A stretch of 59,156 nucleotides of DNA from Candidatus Zipacnadia bacterium (GTDB lineage Bacteria > Armatimonadota > Zipacnadia > Zipacnadales > UBA5352), in NCBI GenBank assembly GCA_029820295.1, contig JALGVA010000008.1, positions 1 through 59,156 of the forward strand, given 5' to 3'. The translations under genes and the position numbers were made by a program. Below, piece by piece: positions 4,361 through 59,156 of this stretch. A model generated the notes under the pieces. It was given only the letters and a program-made list of their open reading frames with translations. It ran no database searches and was not told the DNA's origin. Numbering within the stretch: position 1 is the first letter of the stretch; every line of letters starts with the position of its first letter.

Positions 4361-4474
4361 CGAACCGGGAACCGGGGATGGCGACGGCATGGGCACGCGT
4401 CGCCGGCCGGATCGCCGGGGCTCGCCGGGCGCGCCCGCCGTTGGCCGGTAGCTGGAAGCTGGTAGCTGGTAGCT
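4361..4474 (+). repeat. Heptanucleotide tandem repeats between genes
   Basis: Two short arrays with a 7-base period lie in the 159-base gap between the glycosidase-like gene and the DUF4139 gene. At about 4361-4380 CGAACCG/GGAACCG/GGGATGG units repeat. At 4447-4474 there are four GGTAGCT units, the second being GGAAGCT. The second array ends just before the Shine-Dalgarno sequence of the next gene. Such heptamers resemble STRR-type repeats known from other bacteria. Confidence 0.6.
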
Positions 4475-4490
4475 GACCCAGGGAGGTCGA

Positions 4491-26581: not shown

Positions 26582-27755
26582 CGCGCTCACCCACCGTAAC
26601 CGGCTCGATGGTCACGACCTCGCCCGGCTCGGCGGCGTCGCCAGCCAGCTCGACGAGCAGCCCGGTCGCACCGCACCGGATCTCGATGATCGGCCACCAG
26701 GGCCAGCCCAGCTCCGCGGGCGTGCGCTCCAGCGCATCGGCCAGCGGCACCGCCGTGCCCGACGGGATGCGCTCGGCCGCCAGCACGTCAGCACTCCCGC
26801 AGCCCCCGCAGCGCACCCGCCGGCCGAGCAGCAGGTGCGGCAGCTCGGTGTAGCGCCCGCAATCCGGGCAGAAGACCGCGCGCGCGGCCGGCGCCGGGAG
26901 CGCCACCTCGGCCTCGCCGGCGTCCACGCCGAGCGCGTCGAGGATCGCTTCGAAGATGTCGCCCGTGCCCTGCGACACGGACGTGATCTGCTCGGAAGAC
27001 CGGCCGTCATCGGCGCCGCACACCGGGCAGTCGGCGCGCCGGGCCACCCGCGCGCGCAGCACCGGCTGTCCGGGTGCGAGGTGCATCATCTCCGTATGCT
27101 CGCGCGCGCCCGCGGCCAACGCCTGTGTCTCCTCGATCGCGGTCGCCGCCACGAGCGCGGCCTGATGAAGGGTGGAGTTGGTCGGCGGCGGCTCGGGCGC
27201 GTTGGCCTCAACGGCGTCGATGCCGTCGAGGAAGCAGCCCGCCGGCGGCTGCTCGGGGTTGCGCCCCAGGCAGGCGTAGCATGCCTGCTCGCGACCGGCA
27301 GGGGCCGCCAGCACCTCGACCGCGTCCGGCCCGAGCCCGGTGGCCACCATCGCCAGGCCATGGCGGCGGGCGACGCGCGCCAGGTGCGTCTGCGTGGCGA
27401 TCGCGTCGGTGCACGCGAGCACGAGCGCGCCCTCCCGGGCCAGGTGGCGCCAGTAACCGTCGCCGATGTCCTCCGCCGCCGCGAGCAAGCTGCGCTCGGG
27501 GCCAAGCCACGGGAAACGGGCGCGTCGGTACTCCTGCAGCATCGCCGCCTTCGGGCGGCCGGGCTGGGGGAAGGGCGACAGGATCGTCTGGCGGGGCTCC
27601 ACGTGGTCGAAGTCGATGAGGTCGAGGTGCGCCTCGGGGGCCAGCACGCCGATCATGGCGCCCGTCAGGCCGCAGCCCACGAGCGCGGCGCGGAAGTCGC
27701 ACGAGGGAGGCCGGGCCTCGCGCACGGGGAACTGCTTCATCACGCGCACACTCAT
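26571..27755 (-). CDS. E1-like ThiF-family adenylyltransferase (E1-1) with zinc ribbon
   Basis: The ThiF Rossmann domain starts near residue 22: nucleotide loop LVGCGLTG (G27, G29, G32), DLIDFDHVEPRQ (D48, D50, R55, Q56), K69 in GRPKA and CTDAIATQ (D117). CYAC (159, 162) and CPVC (243, 246) form the structural zinc site of MoeB/ThiF/E1 proteins. C174 (PPAGCFLDG) is a candidate thioester cysteine. An additional zinc ribbon follows (CPDC 296-299, CGGC 316-319), then a C-terminal strand domain (residues 325-390) in the position of an E1 ubiquitin-fold domain. ATG 27755 overlaps the RING-like gene stop (ATGA); the 14 codons before it in the open frame are Arg-only noise. 394 residues. Confidence 0.85.
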   Translation of the reverse strand: MSVRVMKQFPVREARPPSCDFRAALVGCGLTGAMIGVLAPEAHLDLIDFDHVEPRQTILSPFPQPGRPKAAMLQEYRRARFPWLGPERSLLAAAEDIGDGYWRHLAREGALVLACTDAIATQTHLARVARRHGLAMVATGLGPDAVEVLAAPAGREQACYACLGRNPEQPPAGCFLDGIDAVEANAPEPPPTNSTLHQAALVAATAIEETQALAAGAREHTEMMHLAPGQPVLRARVARRADCPVCGADDGRSSEQITSVSQGTGDIFEAILDALGVDAGEAEVALPAPAARAVFCPDCGRYTELPHLLLGRRVRCGGCGSADVLAAERIPSGTAVPLADALERTPAELGWPWWPIIEIRCGATGLLVELAGDAAEPGEVVTIEPVTVGERDAH

Positions 27756-47300: not shown

Positions 47301-48518
47301 TCATCGCGCCGACCGCGCCCGGCTCATGCGCTCCCGGTGCAGGCCGTCGGCGCTGACGGCGCGACCGGGCATGGCGTTCGAGCGCAACTCGCCCTGACCC
47401 ATGTAGCGCATCTCGAAGCCCTCGGCGGTCGGCGCCACCTCGCACCATGCGATGTCGTCGTCGCGGCTGTCGCCGGAGATGCCCTGGCCGAAGATCGGCT
47501 CCGGATGCTTCTGCCACCGGCCGAGGCGATGCTCGACGCCGCGCCACTCGGCCAGCTCCATCCCGTCGATGAAGGTGACGCGGCGGGCTTCGGCGCTGGA
47601 GTACTGCGGCACCGGGTGCCGGTCGAAGTAGAGCTCGTTGGCGGCGAAGGTCATGACTCCAATGGCGGGCTGCCCGCAGGAGTCCTTCTGAACGAGCATC
47701 GTGCGCGACAGGCAGTCGTACGGCCCGCGCGCCTCGTAGTGATCGCCGAACGTCTCGCCGCCGAAGCGGGCGAAGTAGACGTGCCGGCGCGTGGTGTTGA
47801 GCCAGAACATCCACGGCACGCCGTGCAGGTCAACCGCGAGGCTCGGCCGCCACAGCTCCTCCATGTGCGTCTCGAAGCTGCCCGAGCGCCCGCTCGCGAT
47901 CAGGTTGGTGCCGACCCGGCGCTTGATGATGATCTCGGACGAGCGCAGCAGATCGTGGATCGCCCAGCGCGCACCATCGTGCAAGGCATAGGAGATGGTC
48001 GAGCCGCCGCCGGGGCGAAGCCGGGCGTAGCGCTCCGGGTGGCGCCGCAGGTCCAGCTTCCCTTCGCCCTGGCAGGCGATGAGCACGGTGCCTGCGGGTG
48101 TCGTCGCGATCGAGGGCCACGAGGAGCAGAAGTGCGCCACCATCTCGTCCCCGGCCCGGCCGGACGCGTCGGTCCACGTCTGGCCATCCGCCGAACGCGT
48201 GTAGTAGACTCGACGCGTGCGCTCGAAGGCGATGTGGCGTGTCCCGCCGGGATCGATCCACACCGACGGCTGCTCGGCGCCCGCCGCGACGCGGTTGACG
48301 GCATCGCCGACCCGCTCGAACAGCGTGCCTTCGCCCGGGATGTAGACCGCAGGCTCGCCCGAGGGCAGCCACGCGGCATCGCACAGCTCCGCGCTCTCAG
48401 CGATCCGCTCCGGGCCGGCCCACGCCGACCGCTCGCCCAGCCGCGCCTGCGGGCCCTCGCCCGAGGCATCGCACTGCAGCCGCCAGATGCCGGACGCGTC
48501 CGAGTGGAGCACCGTCAG
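47301..48518 (-). pseudogene. Truncated sialidase/GH43-fold-like gene
   Basis: From about residue 75 onward the frame is clearly protein-like: SDASGIWRLQC, WIDPGGTRHIAFERTRRVYY, TRSADGQTWTDASG, LAVDLHGVPWMFWLN, DDDIAWCEVAP, YMGQGELRSNAMPG, SADGLHRERM. This is a propeller fold of the BNR/GH43/GH32 kind. No start codon or signal peptide precedes the homologous part; upstream codons run antisense through an unrelated plus-strand fragment. The end (SADGLHRERMSRARSAR) appears cut too, since such proteins continue after SADGLHWE. I therefore read it as a remnant lacking its N-terminus and probably its C-terminus. The 47048-47300 stretch beyond shows nothing certain. Confidence 0.55.
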
Positions 48519-55171: not shown

Positions 55172-57529
55172 TCAGGGCCCTCCGCCCAATCGCACGATCT
55201 GGTAGGCGACCCTGTTGCGCCGGCGGTCGTAGTCGGCCAGGTCCCAGCCATTGGGAATGTTGAAGCTGCCGCCGACCGTGCCCGCGCCCGAGGAGTCCGT
55301 CGCCGTCTCCTCCCACCGGCACTCGATGTAGCGGTTACGCGCGCGAAGCTGCTCCATGTCGAGGCTGGAGGCCAGCCCGGTCAGCACCGCCCGGGCCTGC
55401 TGCGCGCGCTCGTGCCGTCCGTCCGCCTCGGCCCGCTCAATGGCGTGCTCGAGGGTCTGCAGGTAACGCAGGTCGTCCACGCCTTCGCGGATGCACTCCC
55501 ACATCAGCGACGGGCCGCCCGGGATGTCCGCATGGGGCGTCTCCGGGTAGCGGTACATCATGTCGGTGTAGCTGCCATCGAGGCAGTTGAGTGGATTGCC
55601 GGCGGCCTGCTGGTACTGCCAGAGCAACTGGCCCGTCACCTGCTCGCGCCACACGAACACCCCGTAGGCGAGCCGCATCGTGGGCAGCTCCGGGAAGAAG
55701 GCGGCGTCGTTGATGTTGTATGACCACAGCTCCTTGCCCCACTCGGCGACCTGCTGCTTCATGTTCCCCCACCACCAGCCATCCGGCTCGAACCAGATCG
55801 GCCTGGTGGAAAAGCGCTGGGTGAAGATGTCGATGAAGGGCAAAGCGCGTTCCAGCGCGTGCTTCAGCCGTGGGTCGTCCGTGGAGAAGGGGATGTGATC
55901 CACCTCGACGGCGCCGCCCGCATCCTTGATGAGCCGCGACTCGACCGCCCACCGCTCGATGTACGCGGCGTTGGGGCGGTGTCCGTAGGATCCCGGCTCA
56001 TCGACGGGCTGGAACACGATGCCCGGCCAGTTGCGCCGGTCGGACTGCTGCAGCACTGACCGGATGACCTGGCGGTAGAGATCCTCGAACTGCGCCGACC
56101 CCACCTCCGCCTGCTCGCCGCACCAGGCCCAGATGTCACCGTCCATCAGCCACAGCAGCGGGCGGGGGAAGCCCGCCTCGCGGTATGCCTCCATGACCTG
56201 CTCGAAGCGGCTCGTGCCGTCGAAGCGTACCCGCGCCACGCCGTCCGCCAGGTCGATGGTCCCGTTCAGGCCGCCGCAGTAGCCGAGGGTCGTCATGCCG
56301 TGACCGCGCATGTCGGCGAAGCGATCCCGCAACCATGCGCCATCGGCCGTCGCCGACCAGAGCTGATCGTACATGCCCAGCGAGACGCCCTGCACCTCGC
56401 GCAGCTCGAAGGGATGGACGCGCAGGATGAGAGCCAGCGGCGAGGGTGCGGCGTCCTGCGGCGCGACGGTGATGGTGCCGGCGTACTCGCCCGCAGGCGT
56501 GTCCGGCGGCACATGGATCGTCAGCCAGAACTGCTGAGTGCGTCCTGCCGGGACCTCGACCTCTGATACGGCCTCCAGCAGCGTCGGCGCGCGCATGTAG
56601 ACGCTTCCGCGGAAGCTCGTGCGCAGGTTGCGGCAGGCCACGGCGGCAACGTCGATGGCGCCGTTGCCGATGGCGCCCGCGCCGCCGGTCAGATCGCTCA
56701 CGCTGACCCGGACGGGCCCCAGATCGCGGAACGCGTGCACGGAGAAGGTTACAGGCTCGTACTCACCGCGGGCGGCGGCCACACGCAGCTCCGACACCAC
56801 GTCCGCGGCCGCCGGTATGGCGTCCGGGAAGACGAGGTCCAGGTAGGGCCGGGCGGTGATCACGTAGCCGCGGCCGTCGTCGCCCGCCGGCGTCCCTGGC
56901 TGCTCCGGCACGTGCTCGAGTTCGACCATGCCCTCGGGCACGGCGTCCCGAGTCCTCGACCACTCCTCCCACACATCGAACAGCGGCTCCCGGCGTACGC
57001 GCTCCGGATCAACCGCCACGCCCGGCTGATCCGCGGCGACGGGCACGAACTTGAGATAGTTGAAGTACACGATGCGCCCGATGCCGCGCATCAGGATCGT
57101 CTGGTCCGTGAGGTCCACGTCCGTGGCCCACAGGATCTCGCGGTTGGTGTGCACCGTCTCGGTGCCCATCGCCGGCGTGATGGTGTGCGCCAGCTCCTCG
57201 CCGCTCAGCTTGAGCTGCAGGCCCGAGAGATGGTCGATCTCGCGCAGATTGACATAGAGGTTGTAGTGGCCGCGAAGCCCCGGGGTGATAGTCAGATCGG
57301 GACACGTGCCGCCGGCCGGAGCCAGCAACAGGTAGTCGCCGCGCGCCGCGAAGGCGGCCCTGCGCTGGAACCACCTCCCCGGCGCAGCGGTCGTGGACAG
57401 CGCTGAGGCGGGCTTGAAGTACGAGGTATCACCGGCGGTGATGTAGATCGCGGCCTCCTGCTGAGCGAACGTGGCGGCAGTCATCACCATGGCCAGCAAC
57501 ATCCCGGGGATGACGGCATACCGGCGCAT
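55172..57529 (-). CDS. Secreted DUF4091 (GH123-like) glycosidase
   Basis: 785 residues. The start is ATG 57529 (AGGAGG upstream); signal peptide MRRYAVIPGMLLAMVMTAATFA. Residues 240-390 carry the N-terminal sandwich of GH123-like proteins (ARGEYEPVTFSVHAFRDLG, TLLEAVSEVEVPAGRTQQFW, VPPDTPAGEYAGTITV). The barrel follows (GMTTLGYCGGLNGTIDLADG, PLLWLMDGDIWAW, IVFQPVDEPGSYGHRP with the conserved DEP, VEVDHIPFSTDD). The DUF4091 end is recognisable as REGVDDLRYLQTLEHAIERA. The likely role is cleavage of amino-sugar-containing or related glycans. The 297-base gap to the next gene (54875-55171) contains only a 14-bp GC palindrome at 55014-55027. Confidence 0.87.
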   Translation of the reverse strand: MRRYAVIPGMLLAMVMTAATFAQQEAAIYITAGDTSYFKPASALSTTAAPGRWFQRRAAFAARGDYLLLAPAGGTCPDLTITPGLRGHYNLYVNLREIDHLSGLQLKLSGEELAHTITPAMGTETVHTNREILWATDVDLTDQTILMRGIGRIVYFNYLKFVPVAADQPGVAVDPERVRREPLFDVWEEWSRTRDAVPEGMVELEHVPEQPGTPAGDDGRGYVITARPYLDLVFPDAIPAAADVVSELRVAAARGEYEPVTFSVHAFRDLGPVRVSVSDLTGGAGAIGNGAIDVAAVACRNLRTSFRGSVYMRAPTLLEAVSEVEVPAGRTQQFWLTIHVPPDTPAGEYAGTITVAPQDAAPSPLALILRVHPFELREVQGVSLGMYDQLWSATADGAWLRDRFADMRGHGMTTLGYCGGLNGTIDLADGVARVRFDGTSRFEQVMEAYREAGFPRPLLWLMDGDIWAWCGEQAEVGSAQFEDLYRQVIRSVLQQSDRRNWPGIVFQPVDEPGSYGHRPNAAYIERWAVESRLIKDAGGAVEVDHIPFSTDDPRLKHALERALPFIDIFTQRFSTRPIWFEPDGWWWGNMKQQVAEWGKELWSYNINDAAFFPELPTMRLAYGVFVWREQVTGQLLWQYQQAAGNPLNCLDGSYTDMMYRYPETPHADIPGGPSLMWECIREGVDDLRYLQTLEHAIERAEADGRHERAQQARAVLTGLASSLDMEQLRARNRYIECRWEETATDSSGAGTVGGSFNIPNGWDLADYDRRRNRVAYQIVRLGGGP

Positions 57530-57541
57530 GAGCGTCCTCCT

Positions 57542-57647
57542 GTCGTGTCGGACCGGGCCCGCGGGGGCCACCGATGTTGACCACGTCTCCGCTTCTGTTC
57601 GAGCGCGACTGCTCCAACACCTTGCGCGTTCGTTACTCCGACACGAC
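57542..57647. repeat. 11-bp inverted repeat in divergent intergenic region
   Basis: GTCGTGTCGGA (57542-57552) and TCCGACACGAC (57637-57647) are exact reverse complements 84 bases apart. They sit in the 273-base gap between the divergent DUF4091 and Gfo/Idh/MocA genes. They could be paired operators; the gap shows no convincing -35/-10 pair. Confidence 0.4.
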
Positions 57648-57802: not shown

Positions 57803-58941
57803 ATGGCACTCAGAGTTGGAGTCGTCGGGCTCTACCGAGGCGCCGGACCGGCGGCCGTGTTCGCCCACCACAGGGAGTGCGAGCTGTACGCCGTCGCGGA
57901 CCACAACCTCGACAAGGCGCAGGCCATGGCCGCGACCCTCGGCGCAGCGCACGCCGTCGAGAGCCTTGAGCAGCTCCTCGAGCTTGACCTCGACGCAATC
58001 TACATCGCCACGCCGCTGCCGCTGCATGCCGAGCAGTCGATCGCCTGCCTCGATGCGGGCAAGCACTGCTTCTGCGAGGTGCCGGCAGTCTACAGCCTCG
58101 AGGAGGCGCGCGCGCTGGTCGCCGCCGTCAGGCGCAGCAGCGCCAGCTACGCCTTCGCTGAGAACATGGCCTACTTCCCGTGGGTGCAGACCTACCGGCA
58201 GATCGTGGAGGGCGGGGAGCTGGGCGAGATCATCTACGCCGAGTGTGAGTACGTGCATCCATACGAGCAGGGGATGGTGCGCCAGGCCGACAGCGTTGGG
58301 GGGAAGAAGGGCGAGCTGACCTGGCGCGCCGGCATGCCCCCGATCGTCTACTGTACCCATGACCTGGGGCCGCTGCTGCAGATGCTGCACGATCGGTGCG
58401 TGACGGCGGTCGGCATGCACACCGGCAACCGCCGCCGGCCCGACATCGGATGCATCGACATGGAGGTGGGCCTGTTCAAGACCGCGGGTGACGTCACGAT
58501 CAAGGTGCTGTGCAGCTTCTCAGTCGCCAAGGAGCCCCCGCACCACTGGGCGTGCATCTACGGCACCCGGGGCCATCTCGAGTCATCGCGCAGCGGCAGC
58601 GTCGTGACCGCGAGCCCCCATCAGCTCTACCGTGAGCGCTACGACAAGCTCAGCGGGCCGATGCGCTTTGATGTGGATGCCAACCACCCCGGCGCGCCGC
58701 CGGAGGCCTTCGCCGGCGGGCATGGCAGCAGTGAGTACTACATGGTCGATGAGTTCGTGCGCAGCATCATCGATGACACCGACCCGCCCATCGACGTCTA
58801 CGAGGCGCTCGACATGACTCTGCCCGGACTGTGCGCTCACCGGTCCGCGCAGCAGGATAGCGCGCCCGTCGAGGTGCCCGACACCGGTCCGCGCAGCAGG
58901 ATAGCGCGCCCGTCGAGGTGCCCGACCCCAGGGAGTGGTAG
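57803..58941 (+). pseudogene. Gfo/Idh/MocA oxidoreductase frameshifted by a 44-bp duplication
   Basis: ATG 57803 follows AGGAGGTG. The start MALRVGVVGLYRGAG, AIYIATPLPLHAEQS and the EVP variant of EKP (CFCEVPAVYSLEEA) identify the family; GMPPIVYCTHDLGPLLQML is the second-domain motif. The last residues read SAQQDSAPVEVPD and would then continue PREW and stop at 58939-58941. An exact 44-base tandem duplication just before this point shifts the frame, and the shifted frame stays open to the window end. Without the duplication the protein would be about 364 residues. It may be a recent mutation or an assembly artefact; up to the repeat the gene looks intact, so a protein with an altered tail is possible. 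Confidence 0.75.
58839..58926. repeat. Exact 44-bp tandem duplication
   Basis: 58839-58882 and 58883-58926 are identical over 44 bases. As 44 is not a multiple of three, the copy changes the reading frame of the oxidoreductase gene. The rest of the window end (58942-59156) shows no convincing gene. Confidence 0.9.
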
Positions 58942-59156
58942 TCGGGCCGGGCGGCCGTCGGGAGGAGTCGACGGCGATCACGCGCTACTTCCGAAGCATC
59001 CGTCGCACCGAGCCGGCGGTCTGCGGCCGGAGCGCGACGAGCCCGCGCGTAGCACGTCCGACGCAACTCAGTCGCCGGACGGTGCGCTCTGCCCCTGCCG
59101 ACCTTACCGCCTCCCCTCCTCAGCTCTACCCTCCTGCCGCCCAGAGCAGTGTCGGC

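Follow-up and report, generated by a model that had tools for sequence, protein, structure and literature searches.

The stretch of DNA analysed here, referred to below as the window, is a whole contig (C189, 59,156 bases) of an uncurated draft genome comprising 331 contigs, with 98.6% completeness and 4.1% contamination. Close to its end, it harbours a gene for an oxidoreductase of the Gfo/Idh/MocA family, followed by a short tandem repeat that overlaps the 3' end of the coding sequence. The features of this region are the following.

57803–58837, plus strand: Gfo/Idh/MocA-family oxidoreductase gene, codons 1–345, ahead of the duplication (Pfam and orthologue match)
58838–58881, plus strand: copy 1 of the 44-base unit, in frame, HRSAQQDSAPVEVP followed by the two leading bases of the D360 codon
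58882–58925, plus strand: second copy of the unit, matching copy 1 at every base (100%) and shifting the frame
58883–59156, plus strand: C-terminal extension read out of frame, without a stop before the contig end, and terminating after 492 residues when contig C89 is joined
58927–58941, plus strand: usual gene end (PREW, stop), which lies out of frame in the window; relatives end likewise
59043–59156, plus strand: terminal 114 bases, reverse complement of the end of C89 (27556–27669), an assembly-graph overlap

With regard to the host gene, its product matches PF01408, the N-terminal NAD-binding Rossmann domain, over residues 3–114 (67.9 bits, the cut-off being 24, E 1.6e-18), and the C-terminal domain PF22725 (36.2 bits against a cut-off of 27, E 7.1e-9), with PF02894 slightly below its own cut-off (21.8 versus 22.9 bits). 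The search of PDB sequences confirmed the Gfo/Idh/MocA family and nothing beyond, and the eight matches from an NCBIfam search for a named enzyme were all far under the curated cut-offs. The orthologue in genome G028 is 92% identical over 345 residues; the two genes differ at 150 bases, 112 of which are third codon positions, and the changed codons are synonymous in 95 cases and non-synonymous in 31. This excess of third-position and synonymous changes indicates past constraint on the gene body. G028, which provides the nearest relative found of the gene (57803–58881), belongs to another family of the order, whereas G001, a member of the same genus as the window's genome, matches positions 56700–57554 at 85% but the oxidoreductase gene through short stretches of 70–76% alone. 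Judged from these matches, a recent horizontal gain of the gene, or its loss in G001, is possible. In the window's own genome, the oxidoreductase query (57803–58837) gives 85 matches, and contigs C224, C146 and C101 begin inside such genes.

The normal end of this gene can be read from its relatives. The gene ends of all 29 relative loci in the set (L013–L041, 42% to 92% identity) were read, and each has a stop at most 34 residues past the matched part, without a second copy of the unit. The VPD letters are kept in 24 of them by our count, and the sequence and length beyond VPD vary. Five loci are in named genomes, namely, Armatimonadetes, candidate division WS1, Candidatus Zipacnadia, an entry named "bacterium", and Hydrogenedentota, the last being a weak match (27%). 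The gene ends with ...EPVEVPDPREW in G028, ...PREW in G012, and ...PRDW in G032. The one-copy version of the window frame ends with ...APVEVPDPREW and a stop after 364 residues, as in these relatives; the first-pass annotation was therefore right that removal of one copy gives a normal VPDPREW end. The window gene thus resembles other Gfo/Idh/MocA oxidoreductases by its N-terminal and one C-terminal Pfam domain at cut-off and by its conserved VEVPD end, and differs from them in that the last four residues and the stop are exchanged for an out-of-frame tail.

The repeat consists of two head-to-tail copies (58838–58881 and 58882–58925), identical at 44 of 44 positions, a match far beyond chance. 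As the match continues one base past the second copy (45 bases, to 58926), the register 58839–58926, given by the first-pass annotation for an exact 44-bp tandem duplication, is equally valid, and that description is confirmed. Tandem Repeats Finder (TRF) detects two arrays in all in the 59,156-base window: this pair, with a copy number of 2.0, and a 7-base unit, GGTAGCT, present in 4.1 copies at 4447–4475. The homology at the duplication junction amounts to one base. Hairpin-driven slippage was considered and rejected: the unit and its surroundings fold ordinarily (z −0.36, −0.27 and −0.85), and, with the single-strand folding of the unit itself being ordinary (z −0.36), its structure suggests no cause for slippage.

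Since 44 leaves a remainder of two when divided by three, copy 2 shifts the frame. Copy 1 remains in frame to the conserved ...APVEVPD, ending at residue 360, with D360 taking the first base of copy 2. Copy 1 and this base complete the conserved part, and hence just four weakly conserved codons (PREW) are lost, together with the stop. The frame is indeed shifted, as previously described, but only once residue 360 of the 364 has been passed, and a stop-loss extension results rather than a truncation: the extended frame has at least 451 residues (open to the contig end), or 492 when C89 is joined, compared with 364 for the one-copy version. In the tail past residue 360, 132 residues long with C89 joined, the gene end is read out of its proper frame, and intergenic DNA follows. 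The GC content of the contig is 70%, and stop codons are rare in DNA of such composition. A structure prediction for the 451-residue frame had a mean pLDDT of 42.3, with the N-terminal domain alone being confident. The model shows no confident fold in the tail, which weighs little because it is poor across everything beyond the N-terminal domain.

Across the whole order, a search at the DNA level gave a match in 19 of 41 genomes, including the own genome, and all matches outside the window's own place end at or before query base 146, which is the end of copy 1. The junction between copy 1 and copy 2 is present in one of 46 genomes of the class, that of the window. Within the bin, a second allele was not found among the first-look candidates scored (40 of 119), the other three matches being a contig overlap and two paralogues. 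The second copy is absent from all 29 relative loci read, and no other assembly of the duplicated locus was found.

The first-pass annotation took the identity of the copies to imply a very recent event, phase-variation-like slippage, or an assembly error. Identity is compatible with a very recent event but does not imply one, since two 44-base copies diverging by 0.5%, 3%, or 5% would still be identical with a probability of 0.80, 0.26, or 0.10, respectively; identity over 44 bases tells little about age, and "very recent" is thus too strong. Compared with G028, 13 of the 44 bases of the unit are different, against 137 of 1035 in the rest of the gene (Fisher p 0.006). The unit falls in the gene's most diverged 44-base stretch, as 13 or more differences are confined to 44-base segments ending in the unit. 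Changes exclusive to the window number seven in the unit and 56 in the other 1035 bases. Those in the unit are common to both copies and are therefore either older than the duplication or equalised between the copies. The gene end also changes faster between G012 and G032 (8 differences out of 44, compared with 60 out of 1035 elsewhere), so that the local excess is partly that of a fast-changing end.

Tandem duplications were surveyed in the own genome, in a sample of 101 stretches totalling 1,717,875 bases, including 4,500 from two contigs that are wholly N; this sample is non-random, with an over-representation of contig starts, of low-numbered contigs, and of contigs matching the oxidoreductase query. 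It contains seven exact tandem duplications whose units measure at least 20 bases (20, 26, 39, 42, 44, 53, and 95 bases), two further rows consisting of multiples of a 7-base unit (C79 and C222) having been left out. The 39- and 42-base duplications are in frame. The 53-base one is located at one gene's stop and past the end of a facing gene, both genes being whole, and the 26-base one repeats the stretch directly upstream of an ATG. Through the 95-base duplication (L114, contig C222 of the same genome, 342–531), a gene start is present twice, and an intact frame can be read from its second copy; this gene looks to be of the Gfo/Idh/MocA type, and the duplication is 342 bases from the contig end. 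Finally, the 20-base duplication (L134, contig C24, 2403–2445) interrupts a 761-residue frame mid-way. A usable frame is left by five of the seven, against approximately 41% expected at random places (a rough estimate; p 0.11), which is a hint, non-significant, of real events under selection. For comparison, G012 shows one duplication in 386,698 bases, a rate of the same order as seven in 1.72 Mb, and G028 none in 176,257 bases, mostly of short contigs, two of which are all N.

Taken together, these observations lead us to favour, with a probability of about 0.5 and as judged from sequence, a real one-off tandem duplication of 44 bases at the extreme 3' end of the oxidoreductase gene, which we place slightly ahead of an assembly or strain-mixture error. 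It is favoured because the exact pair is present in the sequence, all 29 relative loci have a single copy, and the gene body is constrained, and also because unit lengths vary between the duplications of this genome and the rate in G012 is similar. Exact head-to-tail copies, single in the relatives, are what a spontaneous short tandem duplication leaves. Against a real duplication stand the position of the repeat, 230 bases from the contig end, the clustering of such duplications at contig ends (described below), and their absence from the G028 sample. Mechanistically, polymerase slippage or template switching, acting with almost no junction homology, may have made the tandem copy. In the sequence, the duplication exchanges the final four codons plus the stop for the out-of-frame tail, which is 132 residues long with the neighbouring contig joined. 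The core of the enzyme may still be made, the tail would be a by-product without a role, and the duplicated state could represent a neutral or mildly harmful variant, possibly in part of the population only.

A precedent is provided by the lrp gene of Xenorhabdus nematophila, where spontaneous tandem duplications of 26–116 bp occur among 25 distinct mutations; taken together, the lrp mutations do not amount to phase variation, according to the authors (PMC6786866). The eight lrp isolates tested for reversion are described as sense, nonsense, frameshift, and transposon mutants, with no duplications, and hence the reversal of duplications is not addressed there (PMC6786866). The likeness resides in a tandem duplication of the same size range within a coding sequence. 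The Xenorhabdus cases were sequenced clones with a profoundly altered protein, whereas the window derives from a draft environmental genome and the change concerns four codons and a stop (PMC6786866).

Nearly as probable, at somewhat less than even odds, is a local assembly error or a mixed-strain product near the contig end, in which case the cell would have one copy and the 44 bases would have been placed twice. The fragmented and partly contaminated bin agrees with it, as does the location of the repeat. In addition, three of the seven duplications lie within 700 bases of contig ends, where 4% of the sampled bases are found, and a rank test of end proximity against sampled bases gave p 0.0017 with all seven included and p 0.011 with the 44-base one removed. 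Contig ends are where an assembler is unsure, and thus this clustering fits local errors; it also fits real duplications differing between strains. Comparison of 42 contig ends revealed three overlapping pairs, the overlap being exactly 114 bases in every case, which is a sign of a graph (de Bruijn) assembler whose largest k is close to 115. IDBA-UD has been run with maxk 115 in published work (PMC8204110). Following the rule in PMC7111523, by which contig-end overlaps equal n for IDBA-UD and n−1 for metaSPAdes, 114 would correspond to a largest k of 114 with IDBA-UD, a mismatch with maxk 115, or of 115 with metaSPAdes.

Other observations speak against an error. At 89 bases, the repeat does not reach the length of the 114-base overlap and could hence be spanned by one k-mer, the unit lengths vary, and several of the duplications are in frame or outside genes. 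A fixed-k concatenation artefact, whereby an overlap would be left in twice, was rejected, as the units vary in length and none equals the 114-base overlap. Missed overlap at scaffold gaps was likewise rejected: the sampled genome contains two short N-runs, without duplicated flanks, the flanks sharing at most 9 bases located well off the gap. The suggestion of an assembly error made in the first-pass annotation stands as a strong rival, except in its fixed-k version, which is unlikely. Local errors of draft metagenomes, as presented in PMC7111523, resemble the situation in the window by an extra short stretch and a contig end exactly overlapping another contig. In the missed-overlap errors described there, Ns separate the copies, whereas those of the window abut with zero N (PMC7111523).

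A further point in favour of an error comes from a twin contig, G005:C181 (30,064 bases), which matches window positions 26740–56923 at 99.5% in two blocks. It is without 19, 10 and, between the blocks, about 91 of the window's bases, besides several one-base gaps, and small non-triplet differences thus occur between near-identical assemblies. The extra stretches of about 91 and 19 bases in the window (48384–48459 and 48310) fall in a long minus-strand frame; this frame is continuous in the window but broken in G005:C181, and a short direct repeat, GGCATCGCAC, flanks the longer one. G005 is filed in another genus than the window's genome, and the sequence match makes it probable that either bin contains a contig assigned to it wrongly. 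Because G005:C181 ends at the equivalent of position 56923, before the gene, it does not settle the copy number.

The first-pass annotation also evoked phase-variation-like slippage, that is, a contingency locus in which a reversible change between one and two copies would switch the gene end. A tandem pair could in principle collapse to one copy; yet the locus has two copies and no array, in place of the multi-copy tract of a contingency locus, the junction is confined to a single genome of the class, and the candidates scored in the bin yielded no second allele. The two states would have 360 of the 364 residues in common, with a loss restricted to four weakly conserved terminal residues, and the gene is one of 85 query matches in the genome. 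In Mycobacterium tuberculosis, promoter repeats have a tandem unit likewise of tens of bases (57 bp), but their copy number varies in isogenic populations, and no such variation is seen in the window (PMC12817950). With nothing found in its support, phase variation at the 44-base repeat is unlikely, and a phase-variable contingency locus is, in our estimation, very improbable. Even less probable are strains with one or two copies whose oxidoreductase would carry either a normal end or a long tail as reversible states. That the 132-residue tail has a function of its own is scarcely credible: its frame does remain open past residue 360 with the contigs joined, but it is made of a wrong-frame gene end and intergenic DNA at a GC content where stops are scarce, it is absent from all 29 relative loci read, and the structure model shows no confident fold for it, a point of little weight given the poor quality of that model beyond the N-terminal domain.

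The 44-base duplication is therefore unlikely to be a genetic switch, and both explanations left, a single duplication event and an error of local assembly or strain mixture, are ordinary. In other respects, this locus calls for caution, as short exact duplications near the contig ends of draft metagenome-assembled genomes lead to apparent frameshifts and long false protein tails; apparent pseudogenes or switches at such places warrant checking against the reads before being named as such. If real, the duplication in this oxidoreductase gene would represent an ordinary mutation.
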